From IMG/VR virus record IMGVR_UViG_3300048597_000673, positions 1 through 39,793 of that record: 39,793 bases of DNA, one strand, 5' to 3'. The stretch is from a virus. The position numbers and the translations under genes are program-made. The first letter of the stretch is position 1. Each line of letters starts with the position of its first letter. Under the pieces are notes generated by a model, which saw only the letters and a program-made list of their open reading frames with translations, was not told the origin of the DNA and did not search any database. Below, piece by piece: positions 1,299 through 26,353 of this stretch.

Positions 1299-2422
1299 CC
1301 CTGCGGCGTGAATCGGACCCGGCGATGACGGCTTGGATCGAGGCGGCGAAGGCTGTGCCTGTGGCCGAGGCGCTTTCGCGGTTTGGCAACCTGAAGCGCG
1401 TGGGCCGGCAGATGGAGGGGCCTTGCCCGCAATGTGGTGGCAAGACGCGGCTTTGGGCTGATGCGGCCAAGAACAAGTGGGGCTGCCGGAACTGCCAGAC
1501 CGGCGGCGGCAACGCGCTGAGCCTGCTGATGCACGAGCCGGGGGCGCGGTTCCTGGATGTGTGCGCCGAGCTGGCAGGGCCGCCACCCAAAAGGCTGGCG
1601 GCGGAGACGGCGGCCGAGAAGGCCGCGCGGGAAGCCGAGATGGCTGCGGCGCGGGCAAGCCGCGAGATGCAGGCCAGGGCGCGCGAGGCCGAGTTGGCTG
1701 CGAAGATGGCCAAGGAGCGGGCAAGGGCGCATGCGATCTTCGAAGAGGCGCGGCCTGTGCAGCCCGGCGATGCCGTGTGGCTTTACTGGCAGTTCCGCCG
1801 GCTCGGCGGGATGCCGCCGGCTGGCATTCGCTGTCATGCCGCGCTCGACTACTGGCACGACTGCCGACCCGAGGGCGACAAGGACGCGGCGCCTGACTGG
1901 CGCGTTGTGCACACCGGCCCGGCCATGTTGGCGGCTGCCCTCGGTCGAGGCCCTGCGGCCACAGGTTGCCATATCACATGGCTGGACCCGGCGCTGACGG
2001 GGCTCGACGCCGCAAAGGTGGCGGCCAAGGGCAAGGCCGTGATCCGCCACCCGCTGACCGGCCAGACGCTGCCGGCCAAGAAGATGCGCGGCGAGACATG
2101 GGGCAGCGCGATCTGGCTGACGCCGCCCCGCCGCTTCATGCTGGCGGGCGAGGGCATCGAGACCACGCGCACGGCGCTGAGCGCCTTTGAGGGCCGCGCC
2201 GATGTGGGCGCGCAGGTGGCGATGAGCCTTGGGCACCTGTCGGCCATGCCGATCGTGCCCGGGGCGGCCTATCTCTTTCTCGGCGATGGCGACAGCCACC
2301 CGGGCGACACGCAAAAAGCGCTGCGGGCCGCCTGCGCCCACGCGCTGGCTGAGGGCGCGGCGCGCGCCAGCCTTGCCATGGCCCCGGCAGGCCACGACTT
2401 CAACGATCTGGTGATGGCATGA
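1295..2422 (+). CDS. Primase-like protein with CHC2-type zinc finger and Toprim domain
   Basis: Probable phage DNA primase component, 375 aa. The N-terminus has a zinc-binding site of four cysteines, C44, C47, C64 and C67 (CPQC and CRNC), as in CHC2 primases and primase-helicases. The middle (about residues 105-165) is Ala/Lys/Glu-rich and probably helical. The C-terminal half looks like a Toprim domain: GEGIE at 285-289 supplies the conserved glutamate and GDGD at 330-333 the DxD metal ligands. The C-terminus HDFNDLVMA is typical of plasmid and phage Toprim proteins. There is no helicase motif; the next gene supplies the helicase. ATGA overlaps on both sides favour the start at 1295; a second ATG at 1325 is possible. 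Likely makes primers at the nearby repeat array (inference). Confidence 0.85.
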   Translation: MTLRRESDPAMTAWIEAAKAVPVAEALSRFGNLKRVGRQMEGPCPQCGGKTRLWADAAKNKWGCRNCQTGGGNALSLLMHEPGARFLDVCAELAGPPPKRLAAETAAEKAAREAEMAAARASREMQARAREAELAAKMAKERARAHAIFEEARPVQPGDAVWLYWQFRRLGGMPPAGIRCHAALDYWHDCRPEGDKDAAPDWRVVHTGPAMLAAALGRGPAATGCHITWLDPALTGLDAAKVAAKGKAVIRHPLTGQTLPAKKMRGETWGSAIWLTPPRRFMLAGEGIETTRTALSAFEGRADVGAQVAMSLGHLSAMPIVPGAAYLFLGDGDSHPGDTQKALRAACAHALAEGAARASLAMAPAGHDFNDLVMA

Positions 2423-4176
2423 GTGGGCTGGGCGATTCCGGGGCGCAGGCGGGCGGGCTTGAGGCTGTGAAGGCGGCGCTGGCGAACGCTGTGCCCTATG
2501 TGCCGGATGATGACGGCAGCGGCTTTGACGATGGCGGCTTTGACGATGGCCAACCGGACGAGGGCGATACGGGCCGCGACGAGCCGATTGCGGCGGACCC
2601 GGCGATCGTGGCGGCCTGTGCGCTGCTGGACCAGAACGACACCGACAACGCGGCGCGGCTGCTGAAGCATTTTGGCGATGAGCTGCTGTTTGTGCGCGAG
2701 ATCGGCTGGCATGGCTGGACCGGCACCCACTGGCGCATGGAGGACGGCGAGCACCTGGCCGAGCTGCGGGCGCAGGAGACGGCCAAGCGGATCAAGCTCG
2801 AGGCGCATGTGCTGCACCCCAGCCCGGGCGACCGGGCGCTGATCGAGCGCGGCGAGAAGCTGGCCGGACAGCCCGACCTGAGCGACGAGGACAAGGCCAC
2901 GCTGCGCGCCGCCGCCGAGGCCGAGACGCGGCTGGGCAAGCGGCGCAAGAGCCGGCGGGACTTTGGCGTCTCATCCGGCAACAGGGCGCGCACCACCTCG
3001 ATGCTGGCGCAGGCCAAGCCGCGCTGCGCTGTGGCGCCGGCCGAGATCGACGCGCATGCCTTCCGGTTCAATGTGGCCAATGGCACGCTCGTGTTCACCC
3101 GCACGGTGACCGAGGAGGAAGACCCTGACGCGGGCGGCGAAGCGCCTGTGATGCGCCGCACAGTGCGCAGCGCCGTGACCCTGGAGCCGCACCGGCAGGC
3201 GGACCGCATTGCCAAGCTTTGCCCGCTGCCCTTTGAGCCCGCAGCCCGCTGTGACCGCTGGGCGGATTTCCTCGAGCGATTCCAGCCTGACCCGACGCAA
3301 CGCCGCTTTTTGCAGGTGGCGGCCGGGGCAGGGCTGATCGGCGGGGCGAAGACGCAGGCGCTGATCTTCCTCTATGGCGAGGGCCAGAACGGCAAGAGCG
3401 TGTTCATGGAAACGCTGGCGCAGGCGCTGGGCGACTATGCCGGGCGGCTGAAGCCCGAGAGCATTGCCGGGCTGGACACCGCGCGCGGCGACCAGGCCAC
3501 GCCGGACTTTGCACGGCTGCAAGGCAAGCGTTTCGTGGCCATTGCCGAGCTGCCGCGCGGGGCACCGCTGAAGGAAGGGCTGGTGAAAACCATGACCGGG
3601 GGCGAGCCGATGCCTGTGCGGCACCTCAACCATGGCTTCTTCGACCTGCTGCCGGAGTTCATCCCCTTCATGAGCGGCAACCAGCTGCCCGAGATCGGCG
3701 GACTGGACAAGGGCATCTGGCGTCGCATGAAGTTCGTGCACTGGCCTGTGCAGGTGAGCGAGGCCGAGCGCCGCGACATGCCCGAGGTGGTGGCCGGCTT
3801 CCTCGCCGAAGGGGCGGGCCTGCTGAACTGGCTGGTGGAAGGGGCGCTGATCTTCCTTGCGGAGGGCCTGAAAGACCCGGCAACCGTGACCGCGCTGACC
3901 GAGCAGCACCGGCAGGATCTCGACCCTGTGGGCGCCTTCACCCGCGAGTGCATCCGGCCCTCGCCCGGCTCGGACATCCAGGCGCGGCTGCTGCACCACG
4001 CCTTCAAGCGCTTCTGCGCGGGCAACGCGATCCGGCCATGGAGCGAGAAGGCCTTCAGCCTCGCCATGAAGCAGAAGGGCTACACCCGGATCGACGGGCG
4101 GGTGCGCGTGTGGAGCGACATTGCTGTCGACCTCGACGGGCTGCCCGACTTCCACGACACCCGCGAGCCCGAGTGA
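2419..4176 (+). CDS. P4-family primase-helicase (SF3 helicase, D5-like)
   Basis: A 585-aa protein of the phage/plasmid primase P4 C-terminal family. The superfamily-3 helicase Walker A is GEGQNGKS at residues 320-327. Downstream come the family signatures: AELPRGAPLKEGLVKTMTGG, SGNQLP (sensor asparagine N421) and WRRMKF with the probable arginine finger at R435/R436. The N-terminal 60 residues are acidic and low in complexity; residues 75-280 resemble the D5 N-terminal region. In phage P4 the homologous alpha protein combines origin recognition, helicase and primase activities; here the zinc-finger/Toprim protein is a separate gene overlapping by ATGA. The gene is followed at once by a repeat-rich non-coding region, as expected if this protein recognises an origin there. 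The helicase call is firm; origin binding is inference. Confidence 0.9.
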   Translation: MSGLGDSGAQAGGLEAVKAALANAVPYVPDDDGSGFDDGGFDDGQPDEGDTGRDEPIAADPAIVAACALLDQNDTDNAARLLKHFGDELLFVREIGWHGWTGTHWRMEDGEHLAELRAQETAKRIKLEAHVLHPSPGDRALIERGEKLAGQPDLSDEDKATLRAAAEAETRLGKRRKSRRDFGVSSGNRARTTSMLAQAKPRCAVAPAEIDAHAFRFNVANGTLVFTRTVTEEEDPDAGGEAPVMRRTVRSAVTLEPHRQADRIAKLCPLPFEPAARCDRWADFLERFQPDPTQRRFLQVAAGAGLIGGAKTQALIFLYGEGQNGKSVFMETLAQALGDYAGRLKPESIAGLDTARGDQATPDFARLQGKRFVAIAELPRGAPLKEGLVKTMTGGEPMPVRHLNHGFFDLLPEFIPFMSGNQLPEIGGLDKGIWRRMKFVHWPVQVSEAERRDMPEVVAGFLAEGAGLLNWLVEGALIFLAEGLKDPATVTALTEQHRQDLDPVGAFTRECIRPSPGSDIQARLLHHAFKRFCAGNAIRPWSEKAFSLAMKQKGYTRIDGRVRVWSDIAVDLDGLPDFHDTREPE

Positions 4177-4293: not shown

Positions 4294-4595
4294 TTGCGAG
4301 GGTTGCGAGGGTTGCGCGAGGGTTGAGGGGCAACCCTCGCGGGCCTTTTCATCAACGCCATCAAGGGCTTGGCGGCCGCTTGCGAGGGTTGCGAGGGTCG
4401 CGCGCGTATACGCATATGTGAAAGAGGGGGTGCGGGGGAATGACGGGGAGTGCTTTTCTAAACTTCCCTAATAGGAGAACCCTCGCAACCCTCGCAAACT
4501 ACTGTTTTATGGTTGTTAAGTATCTGAATTAAAACGGAAAACGGGATTGCGAGGGTTGAGGGTGGACCCTCGCACAACCCTCGCAACCCTCGCAA
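4294..4595. repeat. Iteron-like array of TTGCGAGGG 9-mers; candidate replication origin
   Basis: This stretch lies in the 433-bp gene-free interval between 4176 and 4610. Perfect TTGCGAGGG copies on the plus strand are at 4294, 4303, 4380, 4389 and 4547. Perfect copies of the complement CCCTCGCAA are at 4480, 4489, 4578 and 4587. Imperfect copies are at 4312-4322 (CG inserted), 4556-4562 (CG missing) and 4567-4577. Most occur as head-to-tail pairs. An AT-rich stretch of about 45 bases (4498-4540, roughly 72% AT in a GC-rich genome) lies between inverted copies, and GCGTATACGC (4404-4413) is a 10-base palindrome. Direct repeats plus an AT-rich island beside a P4-type primase-helicase match the layout of an iteron origin; in P4 the alpha protein binds such repeats. 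Operator or recombination functions are alternatives. Confidence 0.7.
4315..4341 (+). terminator. Stem-loop inside the repeat array; weak terminator candidate
   Basis: CGCGAGGGTTG (4315-4325) and CAACCCTCGCG (4331-4341) form a perfect 11-bp stem with a five-base loop. It is followed, after GGCC, by TTTTC. It could end transcription of the early operon, but the T-run is short and displaced. The stem is made from the same repeat unit as the surrounding array, so it may only reflect two opposed iterons. Confidence 0.35.
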
Positions 4596-4609: not shown

Positions 4610-5533
4610 ATGAAAACCATGACGATCGAGGCGGCTGTGGCCTGGGCGGTGCGGGATGAGCTGCCGAAGGTGGGGGCGGACCCGCTGGGCAAGATGGTGA
4701 GGGCAGGGGCCCCGAATGGCTGCTCAAGCCCGGCGCTGGCCGCCGCCATGGCCGGCTCGATGGGCGGGGCGATCGACGCCCGCGCCAACCGCTATGGCGT
4801 GGTGCCTGACCTTGCCGCGCTCGACCGGCTGACCGCGCACCCTGCCGCGCTGCTGATCGGCGAGGTGATGCTCTCGCTCGACACGATCGAGCCAGCGGGC
4901 TTTGCCGAATGGGACGCCTTCGAGGACATGGACGATCTGGCCAACGACCCGATTGCCGGCCCGCTTTTGCAACAGGCGAAGGCCGATGCGCGCCTGCAAG
5001 CCGGGGTGATGGCCCGCATGACCGGCGCGCTCTCGGCGCTGATGGTCAAGCGCGCCGTGTTGCCGATGCCGCGCGGCTGGGAATGCGGCGAGGTCACGGC
5101 GGATGTGATCAAGGACCACGGCAAGCCCTGCTGGTTCCGGATGGTGTCGCGGCCTGCGCAATGGAACGAGGCCGGCGAGGTGACAGCCACCGAGATGGTG
5201 GAGGTGGATGGCTACAACCCCAAAGGCGGGCGGCCTTACCCTGACGCCTACCGCAAGCACAGGCTGACCCCCGACCCGCTGCATGTGGCGCTGGCAAGGG
5301 CGGAATGGCAGATGTGGCGGGCGGCGCTCGATGTGATCCTTGAGGATTGCGCCGGGCCTGCGCTGGAGCACGGGGTGCGGATCATGCCATCGGCGCTGCC
5401 GATGCGGCCATGGGTGGAGGGGCTGCCGGAATGCCGCATCATCAGCGGGGGCGAGGCCATGCCGCACGAGCGCGCGCCGCAGCGGCCAAGGGCGGGCGCT
5501 CCCCTTGGGCAATGGCGACCGACGCGCGAATAA
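4610..5533 (+). CDS. Uncharacterised phage protein
   Basis: I do not recognise this 307-aa protein. It has an Ala/Met-rich N-terminal part (residues 1-120) with several predicted helices and a more polar second half. Trp residues are scattered (WECGEV, CWFRMVSRPAQWNE, EWQMWRAALD), and the tail is basic and Pro-rich. The start at ATG 4610 is chosen because AAAGGGG lies about nine bases upstream. A TTG at 4547 in the same frame falls inside the repeat array and is unlikely. The gene directly follows the candidate origin and precedes a candidate promoter, so it is probably the last gene of the early region, and its expression may be influenced by proteins bound to the repeats. No function can be assigned. 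Confidence 0.7.
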   Translation: MKTMTIEAAVAWAVRDELPKVGADPLGKMVRAGAPNGCSSPALAAAMAGSMGGAIDARANRYGVVPDLAALDRLTAHPAALLIGEVMLSLDTIEPAGFAEWDAFEDMDDLANDPIAGPLLQQAKADARLQAGVMARMTGALSALMVKRAVLPMPRGWECGEVTADVIKDHGKPCWFRMVSRPAQWNEAGEVTATEMVEVDGYNPKGGRPYPDAYRKHRLTPDPLHVALARAEWQMWRAALDVILEDCAGPALEHGVRIMPSALPMRPWVEGLPECRIISGGEAMPHERAPQRPRAGAPLGQWRPTRE

Positions 5534-7001: not shown

Positions 7002-9020
7002 ATGCATCCTGATGCCGTCGCCTTGATCGGTGACACGCTGTCCCGTCTGCTCCGCCCGCCGGAGCCACTGCCGCTGTCCCGCTGGCTCGAGCGCAACCTC
7101 GTGCTTGTGGATGGCCCGCAGGCCGGCGAGCTGTGGAGCGCCGAGGGCGCCCCGTACCTTACGGAAATCGCCGACTGCCTCGGTGAGGACCATCCGTGCA
7201 ACCTGGTGACGATCAGGAAAAGCCAGCAGACTGGCGCCTCGATCCTTGCTCTGGGCTGGGCGCTTTATGTCGCCGAGCGAGAGCCGGCCAACATGCTCTA
7301 TGCCGTGCCCGGCATCGATGCCCTTCGGGACATTAACTCGGGCAAGCTGCAGCCGCTGATCGACGCATGGCAGAAGCTCACGGGCCGGCAGGTCATTGCC
7401 CCGGTCCTGTCGCGCTCCGGCGCCGGCTCGACCACCTATGAAAAGGCCTTCCCTGGCGGGCGGCTCTGGCTCGCCAACGCCAACACGGTCATGGACCTGT
7501 CATCCAAGACGGTGAAGAAGGGCGTCAAGGATGAAGTTTCGAAGTGGCAGGACATCCCCGGTTTCGGTGATCCCGAGACCCTGTTCTTCGGCCGCTTCAC
7601 AGCGTTTCGCCGCACAAAGTCCTACAAGATCCTCGAGGTCTCCACGCCCGAGATCGACACTGGCGACGAGATGGGCGAGGCCGAGGGCCATTGCCGCATC
7701 GATCGCAGCTTTCGCCGGTCGGACCAGCGTTTCTGGAATATCGCCTGCCCGGAGTGCGGCACCGCGTTCCACCATGCCGATGCCGGTTTGCAGGTCGACC
7801 GGGCCCATCCGCACCGCTCGGTCTATGCTTGCCACGGCTGCGGCCATTTGATCAGCGAGGCGGAGCGCGTGCTTGCCGTCCGAGCCGGCAAGTGGGTGCC
7901 AACGATTGAGGGGCCTGACAGGCACCCGGGCTTTCACCTCGACGCCTTCATCTCGCTGATGATGAGCTACGAGGCCATCGCCGAGGACAGAATCAAGTCC
8001 GAGAAGTCCGAGAAGGCCCGAAAGGACTACCACAATCTGGTGCTGGGCCTGCCTTACCGCTATCGCGGCGACGCGCCAGACCATGTCAGGTTGATGGAGC
8101 GGCGCGAGGAGGGGCTGGCGCGCGGGCATGTTCCGCCGCGCGGCCTCATTCTGGTGGCCACGGCAGACGTACAGATGCGCGGCATCTGGCTCAAGATTAC
8201 GGCTTTCGCACCCAACCGCGAGAGCTGGGTTGTCGATGCGCTCTATCTCGAGGGCGAGACTGATTCGCCGGATGCTCCGGTCTTCGAGCAGCTGCGCAAG
8301 CAGACGCTGGACCGCCGTTTTCCCGATGCCTTCGGTGGCACGCGCACCATTGATGCGCTGGGCGTCGACGCCGGCTATCGCAGCCACATCGTCTATGCCT
8401 GGGTGCGACAGAACCAGCGGCTGCATCCGGACACGGGCCGCAACATGGTGTTGGCGCTCAAGGGCCTTGATGGCTGGGGCCGCCCCGCTCTGGGCCTGCC
8501 GGGCCTCGTCGACATTCATCTTGATGGCACCCGCGTCAAGCAGGGATGCCAGCTCTGGCCGGTCGGCACATGGCCGCTCAAGGGCCAGTTTTATTCTGAT
8601 CTGCGCAAGCAGGGCCTGCGATCTGGTGCCGGTTCTGACCCGGATGGCTACATCCACCATCCGATCTGGCTGGATGAGAACTACTTTCGGCAGATCACCG
8701 CCGAACACCTCGAAGACATCGTGGTGCGCGGTCGAAAAACAGGGCAGCGCTGGGCCAAGGGTGGTGACAACCACTTTCTCGACTGCGCCGTCTATGCGCT
8801 TGCCCTGGCAGATCACCTCGGCCTGTCGAACATGACGGCCGATGAGTGGGCCATGCTGGCCAAGCGCCGCGGCCAGCCGAGCATGGTCGAGGACCTTTTC
8901 ACCGCCGCTTCCCAGCCCGCACCGGGCGCGGATGAGGCCCCGCCGCCGGAGCCCGCCCCGGCGCCGTCAAGCACCGCAGCCGGCTGGTTGCCCAATCGAC
9001 AGGGATGGTTGAAACGATGA
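7002..9020 (+). CDS. terL: Terminase large subunit, lambda GpA family
   Basis: ATP-driven DNA translocase and nuclease that cuts and packages phage DNA into proheads. The 672-aa length and motif set fit the GpA family. The N-terminal ATPase has KSQQTGAS at residues 73-80, the family's variant Walker A. A CxxC pair of zinc-ribbon type is present (ACPECG and YACHGCG, about residues 248-280). The C-terminal nuclease supplies acidic residues in TADVQ (D389), GVDAGYRS (D456) and GGDNHFLDCA (D589, D594). The last 50 residues are Pro/Ala-rich and probably contact the portal. GpA-type enzymes usually make cohesive ends, which suggests a cos phage (inference). The gene starts the head operon and slightly overlaps the gpW-like gene. 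Confidence 0.97.
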   Translation: MHPDAVALIGDTLSRLLRPPEPLPLSRWLERNLVLVDGPQAGELWSAEGAPYLTEIADCLGEDHPCNLVTIRKSQQTGASILALGWALYVAEREPANMLYAVPGIDALRDINSGKLQPLIDAWQKLTGRQVIAPVLSRSGAGSTTYEKAFPGGRLWLANANTVMDLSSKTVKKGVKDEVSKWQDIPGFGDPETLFFGRFTAFRRTKSYKILEVSTPEIDTGDEMGEAEGHCRIDRSFRRSDQRFWNIACPECGTAFHHADAGLQVDRAHPHRSVYACHGCGHLISEAERVLAVRAGKWVPTIEGPDRHPGFHLDAFISLMMSYEAIAEDRIKSEKSEKARKDYHNLVLGLPYRYRGDAPDHVRLMERREEGLARGHVPPRGLILVATADVQMRGIWLKITAFAPNRESWVVDALYLEGETDSPDAPVFEQLRKQTLDRRFPDAFGGTRTIDALGVDAGYRSHIVYAWVRQNQRLHPDTGRNMVLALKGLDGWGRPALGLPGLVDIHLDGTRVKQGCQLWPVGTWPLKGQFYSDLRKQGLRSGAGSDPDGYIHHPIWLDENYFRQITAEHLEDIVVRGRKTGQRWAKGGDNHFLDCAVYALALADHLGLSNMTADEWAMLAKRRGQPSMVEDLFTAASQPAPGADEAPPPEPAPAPSSTAAGWLPNRQGWLKR

Positions 9021-9244
9021 TCCGCGACGCCGCCCGAATCGACGCCGAGATTGCGACGCTCCGCGCCGCCCTTGCGTCCGGCGCAAAGCGTTGCCGCTTC
9101 GCCGATGGCCGCGAGGTCGAGTATCGCGGCCATGCCGAGATCACGGCCGCGCTGAATATGCTCGCCGATGAGCGCGCAGCGCTTGCTGGCACCGCGCCCG
9201 TCAATCGCGTGGCGCATGTCTACAATTCGGGCCTGTCGCGCTGA
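9017..9244 (+). CDS. W: gpW-like head-tail joining protein
   Basis: A 75-aa protein of the lambda gpW type, which plugs the portal after packaging and prepares the head for tail joining. The family pattern is clear: an N-terminal helix (RIDAEIATLRAALASG), a short beta-hairpin (KRCRFADGREVEYRG), then a second helix (EITAALNMLADERAAL) and a polar tail. Position between large terminase and portal is exactly that of lambda W. ATG 9017 is preferred because it overlaps the terminase stop as ATGA and has AGGG about 12 bases upstream; ATG 9005 has that AGGG directly against it and is less likely. The stop overlaps the portal start as TGATG. Confidence 0.85.
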   Translation: MIRDAARIDAEIATLRAALASGAKRCRFADGREVEYRGHAEITAALNMLADERAALAGTAPVNRVAHVYNSGLSR

Positions 9245-10779
9245 TGTCTGCCTCTCCGCCCGTCGCCACCTGGCTCGACCGCGCGATCGGCGTTGTGGCG
9301 CCCCGCGCGATGCTGGCCCGTGTCGAGGCCCGCTTCCGCGCCGCTGCGATGTCGGATGCCCGCGCGGCCTATGACGGCGCCTCGCGCGGCTGGCGTACCG
9401 ACAGCCGTACCATCAGCCGCTCGGATGCGAACGCCGAGATCCGCGTCTCGCTGCCGCGCCTGCGCGATGTGCACCGCGATCTGGTTCGCAACAATCCCTA
9501 CGCCGCCCGCGCCGTCTCGGCCCGGGTGGTGAATACCGTCGGGGCCGGCATTGTGCCCTCGGTCAAGTCGCGATCGGTTCGCTCGCGCGATGCGATCAAG
9601 GCGCTCGTCGAGGCCCATCTCGACAAGACCGCAATCGACTTTCATGGCCGGCTCAACCTTTATGGCCTTGAGGCACTCATTGAGCGCGCCCGCTCCGAAA
9701 GCGGCGAGGCGATCATTCTGCGCCGCCTGCCCACTGCCGCTGATATGGTTGCGCAGGGCCTCAAGGTTCCGCTGCAGATCGAGGTGCTCGAGGGCGATTT
9801 CCTCGATCACACCAAGCATGGGTATGTCGGACAGAACAACGCCTTCGTGTTCATGGGTGTCGAGTTCGATGCCAGCGGCCGACGGGCCGCCTACTGGCTC
9901 TTCGATGAGCACCCCAATGGCCGCGATCTGCGCCGCGGTTCGCTTCTCTCGCGCCGCGTACCGGCGAGCGAGGTCATCCACTACTATCACATGCTGCGCC
10001 CAGGCCAGGTGCGCGGCATCCCGGATGGAACCCCGGCAATCATGCCGATGTGGGATCTCAACGAGCTGCATGATGCCCGCGTGATCCGCGAGAAGATTGC
10101 GGCCTGCTTCGTGGCCTTCTGGACTCGCGGCGATCAACCGGTCAACCTTGCCCAGGGCGCAGCGGCCAATGAGCGGGCGGCTGGCCTTGCCGTTCGCGAG
10201 CTCGCACCCGGTGTGGTGCAGGAGATGCCGACAGGCTCCGAAGTCCAGTTCGGCGCGCCCCCTGCCACAACGGGCCTCGCCGAGTTTGAGCAAACCTCGG
10301 TCCGCCGCATCGCCATGGCCTATGACATCTCCTATGAGGAGGTCAGCTGCGATCTGTCAGATGTGTCCTTCCTTTCTGGCCGCCTTGGCGAGATCCACAT
10401 GGCCCGCCGCGTCGATCAGTGGCAGTGGCATGCGCACATTCCCACCGTCTGCGACGCACTGGCCCGCTGGTTCCTTGATGCCGCGTCGATTGTCGCCCGT
10501 GTGGCGCCTGATCTGACGCTTGGCTGGACCCCGCCGCGCCGTGAAATGCTGTCTCCAAAGGACGAGATCCCGGCCAAGCGCGATGCAATCCGCGCCGGTC
10601 TGACCTCACGCCAGGCCGAGATCCGCAAGCTCGGCGACGATCCCGAGGAGGTCGACCGCGAACAGGCCGAGGATAACGCCCGCGCGGATCTCGCCCGCCT
10701 GCAACACGATTCCGATGGCCGCCGCCCGCGTCAGGGCCCGAGCGAAACCATCGTCACGCCACAAGGGGAGGGCGCCTGA
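9244..10779 (+). CDS. B: Portal protein, lambda gpB family
   Basis: Forms the dodecameric channel at the capsid vertex through which DNA enters and leaves. The 511-aa length and the sequence fit the lambda-family portal: an N-terminal region with RDLVRNNPYAARAVSARVVN and TVGAGIVP, a central stem/wing region including ARSESGEAIILRR and IEVLEGDFLD, then VIHYYHMLRPGQVRGIPDGT, and a C-terminal RAGLTSRQAEIRKLGDDP. The tail (about residues 480-511) is charged and disordered. It starts at TGATG with the gpW-like gene and its stop overlaps the start of a tiny reading frame at 10779. Strong AGGGGAGGG at its 3' end serves that next frame. Confidence 0.95.
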   Translation: MSASPPVATWLDRAIGVVAPRAMLARVEARFRAAAMSDARAAYDGASRGWRTDSRTISRSDANAEIRVSLPRLRDVHRDLVRNNPYAARAVSARVVNTVGAGIVPSVKSRSVRSRDAIKALVEAHLDKTAIDFHGRLNLYGLEALIERARSESGEAIILRRLPTAADMVAQGLKVPLQIEVLEGDFLDHTKHGYVGQNNAFVFMGVEFDASGRRAAYWLFDEHPNGRDLRRGSLLSRRVPASEVIHYYHMLRPGQVRGIPDGTPAIMPMWDLNELHDARVIREKIAACFVAFWTRGDQPVNLAQGAAANERAAGLAVRELAPGVVQEMPTGSEVQFGAPPATTGLAEFEQTSVRRIAMAYDISYEEVSCDLSDVSFLSGRLGEIHMARRVDQWQWHAHIPTVCDALARWFLDAASIVARVAPDLTLGWTPPRREMLSPKDEIPAKRDAIRAGLTSRQAEIRKLGDDPEEVDREQAEDNARADLARLQHDSDGRRPRQGPSETIVTPQGEGA

Positions 10780-13981: not shown

Positions 13982-14742
13982 GCGTCAATCGCCTCCTGCT
14001 GCGCCTGATGGCGATCTCGGCTCTCACCGCCAATGGCTCGCCTTCCGGCGGCATCTGGCCGACAGCCGCCGAGGACCGGGTCCTTGATGGCCGGCTCGAC
14101 TCGATTCGCTCCGTGATCGATGAAGCCGGCGCCCAGCCCGTCATTCTGGTCGAGACCCCGATGGATGAAGGCATGCCCTTCTGGCAGGGCTACAAGGACG
14201 ACCGCAAGCTCGATCTGGTCTTCGAGATTTCATTGCCTGTCCGCGAGGATGATGGCGATGCGGGTTTCGTGATCGGTCATCCCTACAGCGACAGCGAGCG
14301 CAATGCCTCACTCGACCTGATCGAGGCGCAGATCCATGCCGCTCTCTGGTCGAGCGATGCTTTCAAGGCACTGGTCTGCCGGCTCGACGGCGCGGCCAGC
14401 GCGCTGGCCACCGATGACACCGGCAAGGCGATCGCCATCCGCCATTTGCGCTATCAGATCGTGACCTGGAAAGAGCAAGTCGCACCTGGTGATGTGCCCG
14501 AATGGGCCGCGCCTGCGCTCACACTGCTCGAGGCCAACCCTGTCTTGGCAGCCCGTGCAGCCGCCATCCGTGCGCGTTATGTCGCCCCTGCTGCCGCCAA
14601 CGCCGCAATCAGGCTCCTGCTCGATCGTGGCTGGACCCGCAGCACCGCAGAAGACCTTGGCAGCTTTGTCACCGAGGAGGCGCCTGTTCTGACGGGGGTC
14701 GAGATCATAGAAACATCTGGGCCGGTCGAGGGTGGGTCTTAA
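13978..14742 (+). CDS. Uncharacterised structural protein between head and baseplate genes
   Basis: A 254-aa protein that I do not recognise. The N-terminal half has alternating strands and helices (QPVILVETPMDEG, KLDLVFEISLPV, SLDLIEAQIHAAL), like tail-completion proteins. The C-terminal part is helical and Ala-rich (LLEANPVLAARAAAIRARY, NAAIRLLLDRGW). It is coupled by ATGA to the connector gene upstream and by TAATG to the spike gene downstream. Position suggests a tail terminator or neck protein joining the lambda-type head to the P2-type tail, which would be an interface protein of a chimera; this is inference only. Confidence 0.6.
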   Translation: MSVNRLLLRLMAISALTANGSPSGGIWPTAAEDRVLDGRLDSIRSVIDEAGAQPVILVETPMDEGMPFWQGYKDDRKLDLVFEISLPVREDDGDAGFVIGHPYSDSERNASLDLIEAQIHAALWSSDAFKALVCRLDGAASALATDDTGKAIAIRHLRYQIVTWKEQVAPGDVPEWAAPALTLLEANPVLAARAAAIRARYVAPAAANAAIRLLLDRGWTRSTAEDLGSFVTEEAPVLTGVEIIETSGPVEGGS

Positions 14743-15308
14743 TGAGCGGGCTTGGCCGTCTCGTTCAAGTCCTGACCGCGCGTTTCAGGGATGCCGAGGC
14801 AGAGATTGAGCAGCTGAAGCTGCGCCTCGACAACACGATCCGCGAGGGACGGGTCACAAAGGTTTTGCCTGACAAGGGTAAGGTCGAGGTGGACATGAAC
14901 GGGCTCGCCTCCGACGAGCTCGACCTCAGCCATCGCTCCGGTTCCCAGCGCGAGTGGGACCCGCCGTCCGTGGGAGAGCGTGTCCTGGTTCTCAGCCCAA
15001 CCGGGGAGCCCGGCCTCGGAGTCGTGCTGCCAGGCGGCTATTCTGACGATTTCCCCGCGCCACATGACAAGGCCGGCGAGTATGTCCGCAGCAACGGCGA
15101 GACGCGGCTTCTCCAGACCGCCGACCGCATAGAAATCAGCGCGCCGACGATCGTGCTCAGGAGCGGCTCCGCAACCGTCACACTGACCGCCGATCTGCTC
15201 AAGGCTCTGGTCGAGCGGGTCGAGAACAATGGCCGCAACATCGGCGCCGACCATACTCATGGCGGGGTCCTGCCAGGCGGCTCCAACACCGACATTCCCA
15301 ACGCATGA
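14742..15308 (+). CDS. V: Baseplate spike protein, P2 gpV family
   Basis: Central membrane-piercing spike of contractile tails, 188 aa. The N-terminus is a short coiled coil (FRDAEAEIEQLKLRLDN). An OB-fold domain follows (VTKVLPDKGKVEVDMNG, then VGERVLVLSPTGEPGLGVVLPG). The C-terminal part is a narrowing beta-helix (RIEISAPTIVLRSGSATVTL) ending near HTHGG, with the HxH-type tip that can hold an iron ion in the family. The ATG at 14742 overlaps the previous TAA and is preceded by GAGGGTGGG. It opens the P2-like tail module. Confidence 0.9.
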   Translation: MSGLGRLVQVLTARFRDAEAEIEQLKLRLDNTIREGRVTKVLPDKGKVEVDMNGLASDELDLSHRSGSQREWDPPSVGERVLVLSPTGEPGLGVVLPGGYSDDFPAPHDKAGEYVRSNGETRLLQTADRIEISAPTIVLRSGSATVTLTADLLKALVERVENNGRNIGADHTHGGVLPGGSNTDIPNA

Positions 15309-20900: not shown

Positions 20901-21218
20901 CTGATCGTGGGCGGCCGCATCAGGACGAGCGGAACCTACATTACGCGCCTGTTCCCGATGGGCTCGGCTGTTCGCCTTGCTGCGGTCCTGTCGCAATTCA
21001 CCCCAGCCGGCTCAACCGTGACGGTCGAGCAGGACAACGGTGGCGCGACATGGAATGCGCTGACCGCCGGCACGAGCACGCTGATCGGCAATAACTGGTC
21101 TGACGTGAAGTACGAGCGCGACCCTGTGACGGCAGCCAATGGCCGGGTGCGGATCACGCTCGCAGGTGGCCCGGCGGCTCGCCCGGCAGTCGCGGCGCTG
21201 CGCGCCTACACGGTCTGA
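17964..21218 (+). CDS. Large DUF4815 tail/baseplate protein
   Basis: A 1084-aa protein whose N-terminus (YDRADADAARARLVWSEGTF, then GADLNEAQTISERRDQRLG) is the DUF4815 signature. Such proteins replace the P2 tail-fibre gene H in many alphaproteobacterial phages and are thought to be part of the baseplate periphery or fibre network. The rest is dominated by beta-sandwich-like domains, with a poly-Gly linker (about residues 733-741, GGGGGGGAG) that acts as a hinge before a carbohydrate-module-like segment. Length and domain count point to a shaft or tail-spike carrier. It follows gene I by seven bases and precedes the fibre gene, so it may link the baseplate to the receptor-binding proteins (inference). 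Confidence 0.8.
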   Translation: MPFDHPSGLPAAYDRADADAARARLVWSEGTFIQGADLNEAQTISERRDQRLGNMVAKDGDRLEGASIVINADEERATLAAGRIYIAGDVRPVPAAVINDFPLTGERLVGVRLQRATVTSDDDATLLGLHPGTEAEGEPGAARVRETLVWAMPDDEQAGQFFTVYQVRDGVVVDQAPPPSLSGVLQQIGVYDFDALGNYAVGDGCLVTALGKIGSDQVFSISAGTANIRGFKRTREAAARFAEPEEPDLETVTAEPITMTGPTGGTHVLTVGRAPISGVSAAVIVKRITQTVTRSAVVNGADPLTFSSVVAVESVVQGGTTYIPSTDYVLSSGSISWAPAGAEPSASSTYTVTYLYNDSVTPTAVTDTTVTVEGGVNGQLAQITYTSKVPRIDVLGLDVTGRPVYLKGIAARQGALAPIAPSSVLKLAEISNSWIGPPVVSNNGTRNYTFDAQRRLFGRLIDVLDQFQRQQLRSRILEAEPVSKNGIFTDDFADDFFRDAGAAQTAAIDRGSLSLAIDNVLMQRAGTNIETLAFTEEVVLSQPLRTSGMLINPYDNFTPFPAGMQIEPAVDFWTDIQTDWASDVTREFQTAPNVPPGTTTIIEQTELRRTVAPELRQIAIAVTIEGFGVGENLATLTMDGIDVKPAGTQTANGSGVIALSFTIPASMPAGRRPIRATGAVGSFAQTVFVGEGTVDIQTLRRVHLVAREAPPPPAPTFVFVPEAQQVWQPVVWDNGGGGGGGAGDPDPLAQSFALAEGRLVIGVNFRFTFIGNRANGVRIQISPMVNGFPSNEVLAEAFVNMATPVVGDLIEARFRAPVYLDGLQQYCVVVLTADPDHAVAIARLGDVYDLPGGGQARVSSQPYTVGVLFASANRISWTAIQEADLHFEIVAAKFAPTTRTINLWTGALTNISDIMVRGGVELPTDAAGFRYELVRATGQVIPLAPGQNRPFAEFLNETVTVRAVLTGTEKISPILYPGTLIVGGRIRTSGTYITRLFPMGSAVRLAAVLSQFTPAGSTVTVEQDNGGATWNALTAGTSTLIGNNWSDVKYERDPVTAANGRVRITLAGGPAARPAVAALRAYTV

Positions 21219-21228
21219 GGAAAACACG

Positions 21229-22839
21229 ATGCTAACGGATGCCCGTTCACCGAACCGGAACTACCCGGTTCCGAATGCCGCGAACCTGATCAGCGAGGAC
21301 TTTCCCCGCCTGATCGCCGCGCTTAACGCTATTGACGCGGACGTTCATGGGCTTCTGGCCGCCGTTGGTGCTCGGGCTCTGCTGGATCACATTCATGCCA
21401 TAGATGATGTCGAAGGGCTGCAAGCCTCGCTTGACGGCAAAGCCGCGGCTGGCCACACGCACACGCTCGACAGCCTTTCGGATGTTTCGTCTGCGGGCGC
21501 AGCGACGGGCCAGGTGCTCATCAAGGGCTCCGGCGATTGGCAGCCCGGCACGATAACGCCAGCGCTGATTGGCGCACTGGCGGCAAGTGTCGCAACAGCG
21601 TTCGGCCTGAGCCTGCTCGACGACGCCGATGCCGCCGCTGCGCGTGCCACGCTCGAACTTGGCTCGTCTGCCCGGATGTCCGACGACCGCATCGCCTATG
21701 GCAACGCAAACGCGACGATCTCCGCATCCGCCCGCGTGGTGGCTGTCAACGCCGCGCTGACTGCGGCCCGGACGCTGACGCTGCCAGCAGTGAACGCGGC
21801 GGGCGCTCCTCCCTACATCATCATCGTTGACGAGGCCCGTGGCGTGTCGGCGGTCAACACGCTCTCGATCCAGCGGGGCGGCTCCGACACCATCAACGGC
21901 GGCACGACCCCCATCGTGCTCAATACCGCCGGCGCGGCTGTCATCCTGACCCGCGATGGCACGAACAACTGGACCGCGATCAGCACGGGCGGCGGCGGCG
22001 GCCAGATGATCCCGCATCGCTACGTGGCCACGGCTGCGCAGACCTCTTTCAGCGGCGCGGACGCGAACGGCCTGACGCTCAACTATATCCCCGGTGGCCT
22101 GATCGTAACGGTCAACGGCGTCGTTCAGACACCGAACACCTTCACGGCATCGAACGGAACGTCGGTCGTGTTTGGGTCTGGCCTGACGGCTGGCGACACG
22201 GTTGTCATCTTCGCGCTGTCGTCGTTCTCGGTCGCGGACACATGGACCAAGGCCGAAGCGAATGCGCTCTACGCGGCCATTGCACACGTAGGTGCAGGCG
22301 GTGCGGCTCATGCAAACGCGACGACATCGGTTGCGGGCTTCATGTCTGGTGCGGACAAGACGAAGCTGGACAACTCCGCGACACTAGTGCGCCTCGATCC
22401 GGTTCTAACAACAGCAGGAACAGCCTTCGACTTTAACAGCCTACCGGCTGACGTTGTGCGAATTGAAATCATACTTGATCGTTGCTCCCTTACTGGCTCT
22501 GACAGTTTCCTGGTCCAGCTTGGGACAAGCGGCGGCATTGAGGCGACGGGCTATGATAGTCTTTATACGTTTTCAGCGGCAGCCGTAGCCTTCACAGCCG
22601 GCTTCTGGGTGGGGGGAACATCAGCAGCACCGCTTCACGATGGAATACTTACGCTACGAAGGGTATCGGGCAATAAATGGATTGCTGAGGGCTTTTCAAC
22701 AGCAGCCGGCAATTATTCGGTATTTAGCGTGGGGCGTAAAACGACATCAGGCACCGTTGATCGTCTGCGTTTAACCCGCGACGGCACTAACACATTCGAT
22801 GCGGGCGAAGTAACCGTCCAATATTGGAGGGGGACATGA
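21229..22839 (+). CDS. Tail fibre protein 1 with low-GC receptor-binding tip
   Basis: A 536-aa fibre. Start at ATG 21229, with TGAGGA about seven bases upstream. The N-terminal part has two HxH motifs (H54-I-H56 and H76-T-H78), as in T4-type fibres that bind iron, then DSLSDVSSAGAATGQVLIKG, a common fibre repeat. The shaft contains beta-prism-like stretches and a Gly-rich break (STGGGGGQM). At residues 375-381 is ADKTKLD, the known fibre junction, after which GC drops to about 50% and the sequence becomes a beta-rich tip (DSFLVQLGTSGGIEATGYDS). The tip is homologous to most of the protein at 23231. A ribosome-coupled partner gene follows by ATGA. Host-receptor binding is the likely role. Confidence 0.88.
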   Translation: MLTDARSPNRNYPVPNAANLISEDFPRLIAALNAIDADVHGLLAAVGARALLDHIHAIDDVEGLQASLDGKAAAGHTHTLDSLSDVSSAGAATGQVLIKGSGDWQPGTITPALIGALAASVATAFGLSLLDDADAAAARATLELGSSARMSDDRIAYGNANATISASARVVAVNAALTAARTLTLPAVNAAGAPPYIIIVDEARGVSAVNTLSIQRGGSDTINGGTTPIVLNTAGAAVILTRDGTNNWTAISTGGGGGQMIPHRYVATAAQTSFSGADANGLTLNYIPGGLIVTVNGVVQTPNTFTASNGTSVVFGSGLTAGDTVVIFALSSFSVADTWTKAEANALYAAIAHVGAGGAAHANATTSVAGFMSGADKTKLDNSATLVRLDPVLTTAGTAFDFNSLPADVVRIEIILDRCSLTGSDSFLVQLGTSGGIEATGYDSLYTFSAAAVAFTAGFWVGGTSAAPLHDGILTLRRVSGNKWIAEGFSTAAGNYSVFSVGRKTTSGTVDRLRLTRDGTNTFDAGEVTVQYWRGT

Positions 22840-24871: not shown

Positions 24872-26353
24872 ATGGCCGAGATCTTTCTGCACGGACGTGA
24901 AACCATCGAGCGCGACGCGGGCAACCCGCGCTATGTCGCTGCCATCGACAGCGGCATCATCTGGCTGGTCGGCACTGCGCCGTCTGCCAACGAGACGCTC
25001 TACCCGCTGAACCAGCCCAAGGTGATGCGTGGTTTCGAGGACTTTCCGCAGGGCCTCGGCTCCGCTGGCACACTGCCAGACCAGCTGAGCCGCGTCCTGC
25101 AGCAGGCCGGCCGGATGTCGCAGACGGTCTACTTCGCCCGCGTCGCAGAAGGCGCAAATGCCGCCGAGGGCATCGCGAACGTGCTCGGCTCCCGTTCCGC
25201 CCGCACGGGCCTGCATGCGCTGAGCCGCGTGCCGGGCCTGTTCAACCAGCGCCCCAAGTTGCTTTGCGCCCCCGGCTTCACCTCGCTTCGGCCCACGACC
25301 GGTGCGGCCAGCGTGTCTGTCACTGATGGTGGCGAGGCCTACACCCGCACCCCTGTCGTCACCGTGGCGCGTGGCGTCGGTGATACGACCGGGACGGGGA
25401 TGCAGATCGGCGTCACGATCAACGCCGGTGGCGAGGTCGATGCGGCTTTCGTTATCAACCCCGGCATCGGTTACACCGCCGCGCCGGTCATCACCGTCGC
25501 GCGCGCCGAGGGCGACAGCACCGGCACAGGCGCCACGCTTAGCGTCACGCTGGGGGCAAGCGCCAACCCGGTTGCCGCCGAGCTGGCGACTCTCGCCAAC
25601 CGCAACCGCGCCATGGCGGTGGTCACAGGCCCAAACACGGACGCCGCGGCGGCTGTGAACTACCGGCTCGATTTCGACAGCGACCGGCTGATGGTGCTCG
25701 ACCCGTTCGCGCTCTTCGAAAAGGGCGGCACGCCCACCTCGATGCCCGCAGATGCGGCCGTCTGTGGCCTGCAGGCGCGCGTCGACTATGAGGAGGGCTT
25801 CTGGGTCTCGCCGTCCAACCATGTCGTCAATGGCGTTCTGGGCACCCACCGGCCGATCGAGCATTCGCTTTCCGACCGATCGGTCGAAAGCCAGTACCTC
25901 AACCGCAACCATGTCTCGACCATCGTGCGCAGCCCGCAGGGTGGCTGGAAGCTGTTCGGCAACCGTGTCGCGGCCTCCGACCCGCTGAAGGTGTTCTGGT
26001 CGGTGCGCCGCGCCCACGACGTGATCATCGAGTCCATCGAGATCGCCTCCGAAGTGTTCATGGACAAGCCGTTTTCCAAACAAAACCTGGTGGACATCGC
26101 CGAAACAGTGAACCGTGCGATCCGTCGCTGGCAGGCCCTGGGCGCGACGCTCGGCGGCCGTGTCTGGCTCGATCCCGCGCTCAACACTGCCGAGAGCCTG
26201 TCGAGCGGCATCCTGTACATCCACTACGATGGCGAGGCCCCGGCGCCGATGGAGCACATCGTCTTCGTCTTCAATCGCAACACGGGCTACTACAACACCG
26301 TGCTCGCCTCTGCCGCCCGCGAGATCGCGCGCCAGAGCGCGCTTGCGGGTTAA
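24872..26353 (+). CDS. FI: Tail sheath protein, P2 FI family
   Basis: Contractile sheath subunit, 493 aa. The N-terminal segment FLHGRETIERDAGNPRYV and IIWLVGTAPSANE, the central DSDRLMVLDPFAL, and the C-terminal domain (PFSKQNLVDIAETVNRAIRR, GRVWLDPALNTAESLSSGIL) are diagnostic of P2-like sheaths. Residues about 143-231 form an insertion with two copies of a beta-motif (GYTRTPVVTVARGVG-like and GYTAAPVITVARAEG, each followed by GDxTGTGxxx), probably exposed on the outer sheath surface. The start at 24872 has GGAGG upstream. The stop is followed at once by a degenerate hairpin of the family also seen at 4181. Confidence 0.95.
   Translation: MAEIFLHGRETIERDAGNPRYVAAIDSGIIWLVGTAPSANETLYPLNQPKVMRGFEDFPQGLGSAGTLPDQLSRVLQQAGRMSQTVYFARVAEGANAAEGIANVLGSRSARTGLHALSRVPGLFNQRPKLLCAPGFTSLRPTTGAASVSVTDGGEAYTRTPVVTVARGVGDTTGTGMQIGVTINAGGEVDAAFVINPGIGYTAAPVITVARAEGDSTGTGATLSVTLGASANPVAAELATLANRNRAMAVVTGPNTDAAAAVNYRLDFDSDRLMVLDPFALFEKGGTPTSMPADAAVCGLQARVDYEEGFWVSPSNHVVNGVLGTHRPIEHSLSDRSVESQYLNRNHVSTIVRSPQGGWKLFGNRVAASDPLKVFWSVRRAHDVIIESIEIASEVFMDKPFSKQNLVDIAETVNRAIRRWQALGATLGGRVWLDPALNTAESLSSGILYIHYDGEAPAPMEHIVFVFNRNTGYYNTVLASAAREIARQSALAG

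Follow-up and report, generated by a model that had tools for sequence, protein, structure and literature searches.

Directly behind the primase-helicase gene of a virus from the IMG/VR database lies a gene-free stretch filled with copies of one 9-mer, and we asked whether this array is the replication origin of the virus and which protein would recognise it. The window, i.e. the whole stretch of DNA analysed here (39,793 bp), is an IMG/VR virus record that carries terminase, tail sheath and lysozyme genes. The reading that we prefer, with a probability of roughly 90% and on the strength of sequence comparisons, is that the array at 4294-4595 is a replication origin of the P4/PICI initiator-helicase kind, in a variant in which the iterons form a dyad. 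This would allow the origin to be predicted concretely in a large family of phages with P4-type helicases, most of them uncultured.

Layout of the array and its gene neighbourhood

The features that the argument needs are the following:

1295-2422, + strand: Toprim primase-like gene (DUF7146, Toprim_3, CHC2-type zinc ribbon; Pfam, PHROG), overlapping the helicase gene by 4 bp
2419-4176, + strand: D5_N/SF3 helicase of 585 aa, the predicted initiator and proposed iteron binder (Pfam D5_N; phrog_1156, E 8e-119; AlphaFold)
3916-4146, + strand: C-terminal winged helix of the helicase, residues about 500-576 (AlphaFold secondary structure; RFX-DBD-like in Foldseek)
4294-4397, + strand: helicase-proximal module of six iterons (4294+, 4303+, 4316+, 4332-, 4380+, 4389+), its gap not AT-rich; putatively crr-like
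4398-4479, no strand: spacer between the modules, with the dyad centre near 4444
4480-4595, - strand: helicase-distal module of six iterons (4480-, 4489-, 4547+, 4567-, 4578-, 4587-), in the pattern of the P4 ori
4498-4540, no strand: AT-rich stretch (28% GC), where melting is proposed; its gap corresponds to that of the P4 ori
4610-5533, + strand: phrog_9306 gene of unknown function, following the array; arrays in other phages do not depend on it

The word TTGCGAGGG occurs exactly nine times, at 4294+, 4303+, 4380+, 4389+, 4480-, 4489-, 4547+, 4578- and 4587-, and nowhere else in the whole 39,793-bp window; three further copies, at about 4316+, 4332- and 4567-, are imperfect. With nine copies in 302 bp the array stands alone: elsewhere in the window, no 9-mer exceeds four copies in a stretch of this length. 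The first-pass annotation had described these nine perfect and three imperfect repeats and had placed them in a gene-free region directly after the primase-helicase gene, and we can confirm both statements: the helicase gene stops at 4176 and the next plausible start codon is the ATG at 4610.

The twelve sites form a dyad, that is, two inverted modules of six sites each around a centre near 4444. This layout, like the change of the word between phages and the arrays without a helicase, had escaped the annotation. Relative to this centre and given in the C-rich orientation, they lie at -146<, -136<, -126<, -108>, -60< and -50< on the helicase side and at +38>, +48>, +108<, +126>, +136> and +146> on the other. 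The 43 bp at 4498-4540 have 28% GC compared with 65.6% for the contig. The annotation had seen this stretch as flanked by the repeats, of which the AT-rich character stands but a symmetric flanking by the whole array does not, the stretch lying inside the helicase-distal half of the dyad. The cumulative GC skew, which had been suggested as a check, gave no support, as it does not turn at the array and has its maximum near 7 kb.

The AlphaFold model of the helicase (pLDDT 87) has a D5/PrimPol-like fold, and its winged helix comprises a recognition helix (543-552) and a wing (R561-V562-R563). The nearest fold in the PDB to this winged helix is the RFX DNA-binding domain, a weak match (Foldseek, E 0.0065). 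The structure of the origin-binding domain of the P4 alpha protein itself (1KA8) is not among the 50 fold matches listed for the winged helix.

Comparison with phage P4 and other origins

The closest parallel to the array is the origin of phage P4. An hhalign comparison shows homology of the window helicase with P4 alpha (E 2e-11), in an alignment that covers the helicase and reaches into the first part of the C-terminal domain, and the Toprim gene weakly matches the N-terminal zinc region of alpha (E 2e-6). In the P4 ori (NC_001609) the type-1 repeats lie at 9310, 9320, 9331, 9353, 9396 and 9406 in the orientations ---+--, i.e. with spacings of 10, 11, 22, 43 and 10, and an AT-rich stretch occupies the 43-bp gap between the fourth and the fifth repeat. 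The distal module of the window shares with it the order of the six repeats, their orientation, their approximate spacing and the position of the AT-rich gap. The candidate origin and the comparison with P4, both already proposed in the annotation, are thus supported by homology of the proteins as well as by the pattern of the repeats.

On the other hand, the P4 ori and crr flank the alpha gene at a distance of about 5 kb from each other, whereas the two modules of the window are adjacent and inverted. Furthermore, the crr of P4 consists of 120-bp direct repeats, the P4 word is CTGTTCACC and that of the window AACCCTCGCAA, and primase and helicase are separate genes in the window. Without the CTGTTCACC word and a separate, distant crr, the array is not a P4 ori proper; by analogy, the proximal module, which has no strong AT gap, may take the place of the P4 crr. 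What places the array among the P4/PICI-type origins is the D5/SF3 helicase encoded on the same element, with iteron sets directly 3' of it and an AT-rich stretch.

In PICIs and SCC elements, too, the origin lies directly 3' of the Rep helicase gene and consists of two iteron sets and an AT-rich region (PMC6092414, PMC7581432), all of which the candidate origin of the window shares. For SCC Cch2 the C-terminal domain was found to bind the iterons (PMC7581432), and binding of SaPI Rep has been reported as two hexamers (PMC6092414). The PICI organisation has been described as common to no other known bacterial replicon (PMC6092414). PICIs and SCC elements are satellites or chromosomal cassettes, whereas the window belongs to a phage that has genes for head, tail and lysis; if our reading is right, such phages, too, have the rep-ori design that was considered peculiar to phage-inducible islands.

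Among phages, the annotated rep_origin of Lactobacillus phage A2 (AJ251789, 32208-32717) overlaps the 3' end of a homologous primase gene (tblastn, E 3e-47). It likewise has two opposed repeat sets around an AT-rich stretch, but its word is TCCTCCCGT, fewer sites were detected, and its AT-rich stretch separates the two sets. The cultured Aurantimonas phage AmM-1 has a dyad that is near canonical, and its word is TTGCCTCCC. A blastn search of the array against cultured phages gave no real match, and of 78 literature text matches to TTGCGAGGG, the 20 listed concern unrelated subjects. The annotation had not recognised the repeat type as a described origin. This needs to be split: the best reading is that the dyad arrangement is a new variant, while an origin 3' of the helicase gene is of a known kind (P4, PICIs, phage A2).

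Recurrence of the array and variation of its word

The tandem 18-mer TTGCGAGGGTTGCGAGGG is found in 53 IMG/VR contigs compared with 3 for the same letters reversed. A helicase homologue, with identity down to about 34%, lies within 1.5 kb of 34 of the 37 dense arrays that are not cut by a contig edge. This is the opposite of repeats scattered without a link to the helicase, the pattern that the first-pass annotation had held to speak against an origin. In bacterial genomes the dense arrays are mostly alphaproteobacterial, with 13 beside a helicase, and the near matches that eight host genomes contain outside the arrays are isolated and weak. Arrays without a helicase are seen at the loci L029, L046 and L051.

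Repeats after primase-helicase genes do recur in related phages. Among 80 viral loci sampled by the helicase alone (a sample biased towards relatives of the array-bearing phages, since the profile was built mainly from these), a 9-mer is present at least four times within 400 bp 3' of the helicase gene in 59%, compared with 0.25% of 1586 control windows drawn from the same loci. For three occurrences the respective values are 85% and 3.3%, and about 15% of the loci have no 9-mer repeated three times after the helicase. The core of the window word, GCGAGGG, occurs at least three times after the helicase in 13 of the 80 loci; words of other loci include AACTATCGCA, AACTGTCGC, AACTGTCAC, AACCCGACAT, CCCTACACC, AACCCTGCA, ACCCTTCCA and ATCCTCCC.

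The position and the layout vary less. The distance from the helicase stop codon to the array centre is 86-240 bp (median 175), and the dyad layout is often kept between phages although the word differs; for example, L108, L129 and L136 combine the layout of the window with different words. Overall, though not in every locus, 74% of the sites are mirror-paired compared with 45% under shuffled spacing and strand; in some relatives the dyad is weak or not recognisable. The AT maximum lies in the distal gap, at +50 to +97, in most of the 32 canonical arrays.

We see that the word changes together with the C-terminal domain of the helicase. With control for the ATPase core, word similarity correlates with the identity of this domain (partial rho 0.42, reached in 0 of 500 permutations), compared with a partial rho of 0.15 for the ATPase core with control for the C-terminal domain. 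Of all helicase columns, those most associated with the CCCTCG word are R561, R563 and E543. The wing residues were picked by scanning, and with this in mind the motif R-x-[RKH] (R561-x-R563 in the window) is found in 38 of 39 helicases with a CCCTCG word and in 1 of 44 others; thinning to a core identity below 65%, which removes phage relatedness in part and is not a full phylogenetic model, leaves 12/12 and 1/19, respectively. R561 goes with TCG in the word (44/45 vs 3/38). For example, the helicases of L110 and L121 share 95% core identity, their wings read GRIV and GRAV, and their words are AACTATCGCA and AACTGGTGCAAA. The R-x-R pattern does not hold fully at L123 and for the protein beside the array of the Xanthobacter locus L194, which is little more than a winged helix.

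Given this covariation of word and wing, the helicase itself is likely to be the binder. In the mechanism that we propose, the phage's own SF3/D5-type helicase, encoded immediately upstream, would recognise the array: its C-terminal winged helix would bind the six iterons of 9-11 bp (AACCCTCGCAA) in each inverted module, with R561 and R563 of the wing reading the word. Hexamers would form on both modules (perhaps head to head, as a pair that corresponds to the 2 x 6 sites), open the AT-rich stretch within the distal module and be loaded for bidirectional replication, and the adjacent Toprim primase would supply the primers. Here we infer iteron binding, melting, stoichiometry and bidirectionality alike. 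The linked change of word and wing is a candidate origin-recognition code, under which exchanging two or three wing residues should switch the choice of origin.

Arrays without the helicase and other explanations

Three complete Hyphomicrobiales plasmids carry the array and ParA modules but have no gene for the helicase or its C-terminal domain; an RPA initiator is annotated on two of them. Their dyads, two near canonical and one degenerate (pMaqPC4), are:

NZ_CP133483 (L199), 14653-14968: orphan dyad on a plasmid
NZ_CP107534 (L201), 25103-25440: orphan dyad on a plasmid
NZ_CP043631 (L200), 21081-21327: orphan dyad on a plasmid

In summary, copies without the helicase are found on Acuticoccus p3, Methylobacterium pB and pMaqPC4, and on a contig of Acuticoccus kalidii (L195) with two arrays (8890-9215 and 9811-10106) 600 bp apart near an RPA-ParA replicon; elsewhere in this genome, on a different contig, an array is linked to a helicase. 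An array at 9741-10010 of the Hansschlegelia locus L193 lies in a prophage-like region with an integrase and an HK97-type capsid gene and no D5 helicase nearby. The Methylobacterium currus plasmid NZ_CP089299 (L202, 4554-18143) combines a P4-type helicase and an array with a type I-E CRISPR-Cas operon.

Intact dyads on RPA-type plasmids that lack the helicase and its C-terminal domain could mean that some other factor, from the host or an accessory phage protein, binds the iterons. We consider this very improbable, even though it survives better than the other two alternatives below, because the word changes within one phage family and follows the wing of the helicase. Furthermore, RPA was rejected as the binder of the plasmid arrays, and the array does not fit an RPA-type plasmid iteron origin, being absent from six plasmids with related RPA proteins. 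In the Xanthobacter locus, the 190-aa gene directly before the array (10160-10732, - strand; array at 9807-10112) encodes little more than the C-terminal winged helix, which supports the winged helix as the binder. The element there is satellite-like and carries integrase, HTH and protease-capsid genes, and no further proteins of this winged-helix-only type were found in the viral contigs or phages searched.

The plasmid arrays are possibly natural decoys, hitch-hiking origins or remnants; the first two would suggest a strategy against or with such phages. That the plasmid copies are functional, titrating the initiator of an infecting phage or letting the plasmid be copied by it, seems to us rather doubtful. 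A 302-bp non-coding element (PER) of Streptococcus phage Sfi21 confers phage resistance when present in extra copies (PMC6356513). This element is likewise described as non-coding and origin-like, and because of the effect of its extra copies it is relevant mainly to the orphan plasmid arrays: initiator titration by these would, if true, be the natural counterpart of the engineered resistance by PER.

An even less probable explanation is that the array is an operator of the gene at 4610-5533, or a terminator of helicase transcription. The array does lie between the two genes, phrog_9306 follows it in several phages, and the inverted iterons 3 and 4 could pair into a hairpin. Yet only 15 of 38 array loci have a detectable homologue of the downstream gene, scans of the array for promoters and terminators gave no promoter- or terminator-like match, and Rfam no RNA family. 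A dyad of twelve sites that spans 300 bp and includes an AT-rich gap resembles an origin and not an operator. Autoregulation on top of the origin function is possible.

In lambda-like phages, cos sites contain repeats near terS. This precedent, together with a terminase small subunit gene about 1.8 kb downstream of the array and with terS and terL downstream in many of these phages, would speak for a packaging (cos/pac) site bound by the small subunit, the least probable reading of all, since a recognisable terS is present in only 14 of 38 array loci (terL in 22 of 38), short of a linkage to terS, the array is fixed relative to the helicase stop codon, the P4 ori, an origin, has the same layout, the word covaries with the helicase wing, and the annotated cohesive end of RcapNL is a separate feature.

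Two observations concern the start of the window. Positions 1-120 of the window and of L001, a related but distinct contig, begin at the identical base, which may be a physical end or may mark where the assembly broke off in shared sequence; a cos end common to both was dropped as a candidate, since the second possibility accounts for the start just as well. An MT-A70-type DNA methyltransferase gene (693-1298) precedes the primase gene and is 99% identical in L001, compared with only 64% for the terminase, which points to recent exchange.
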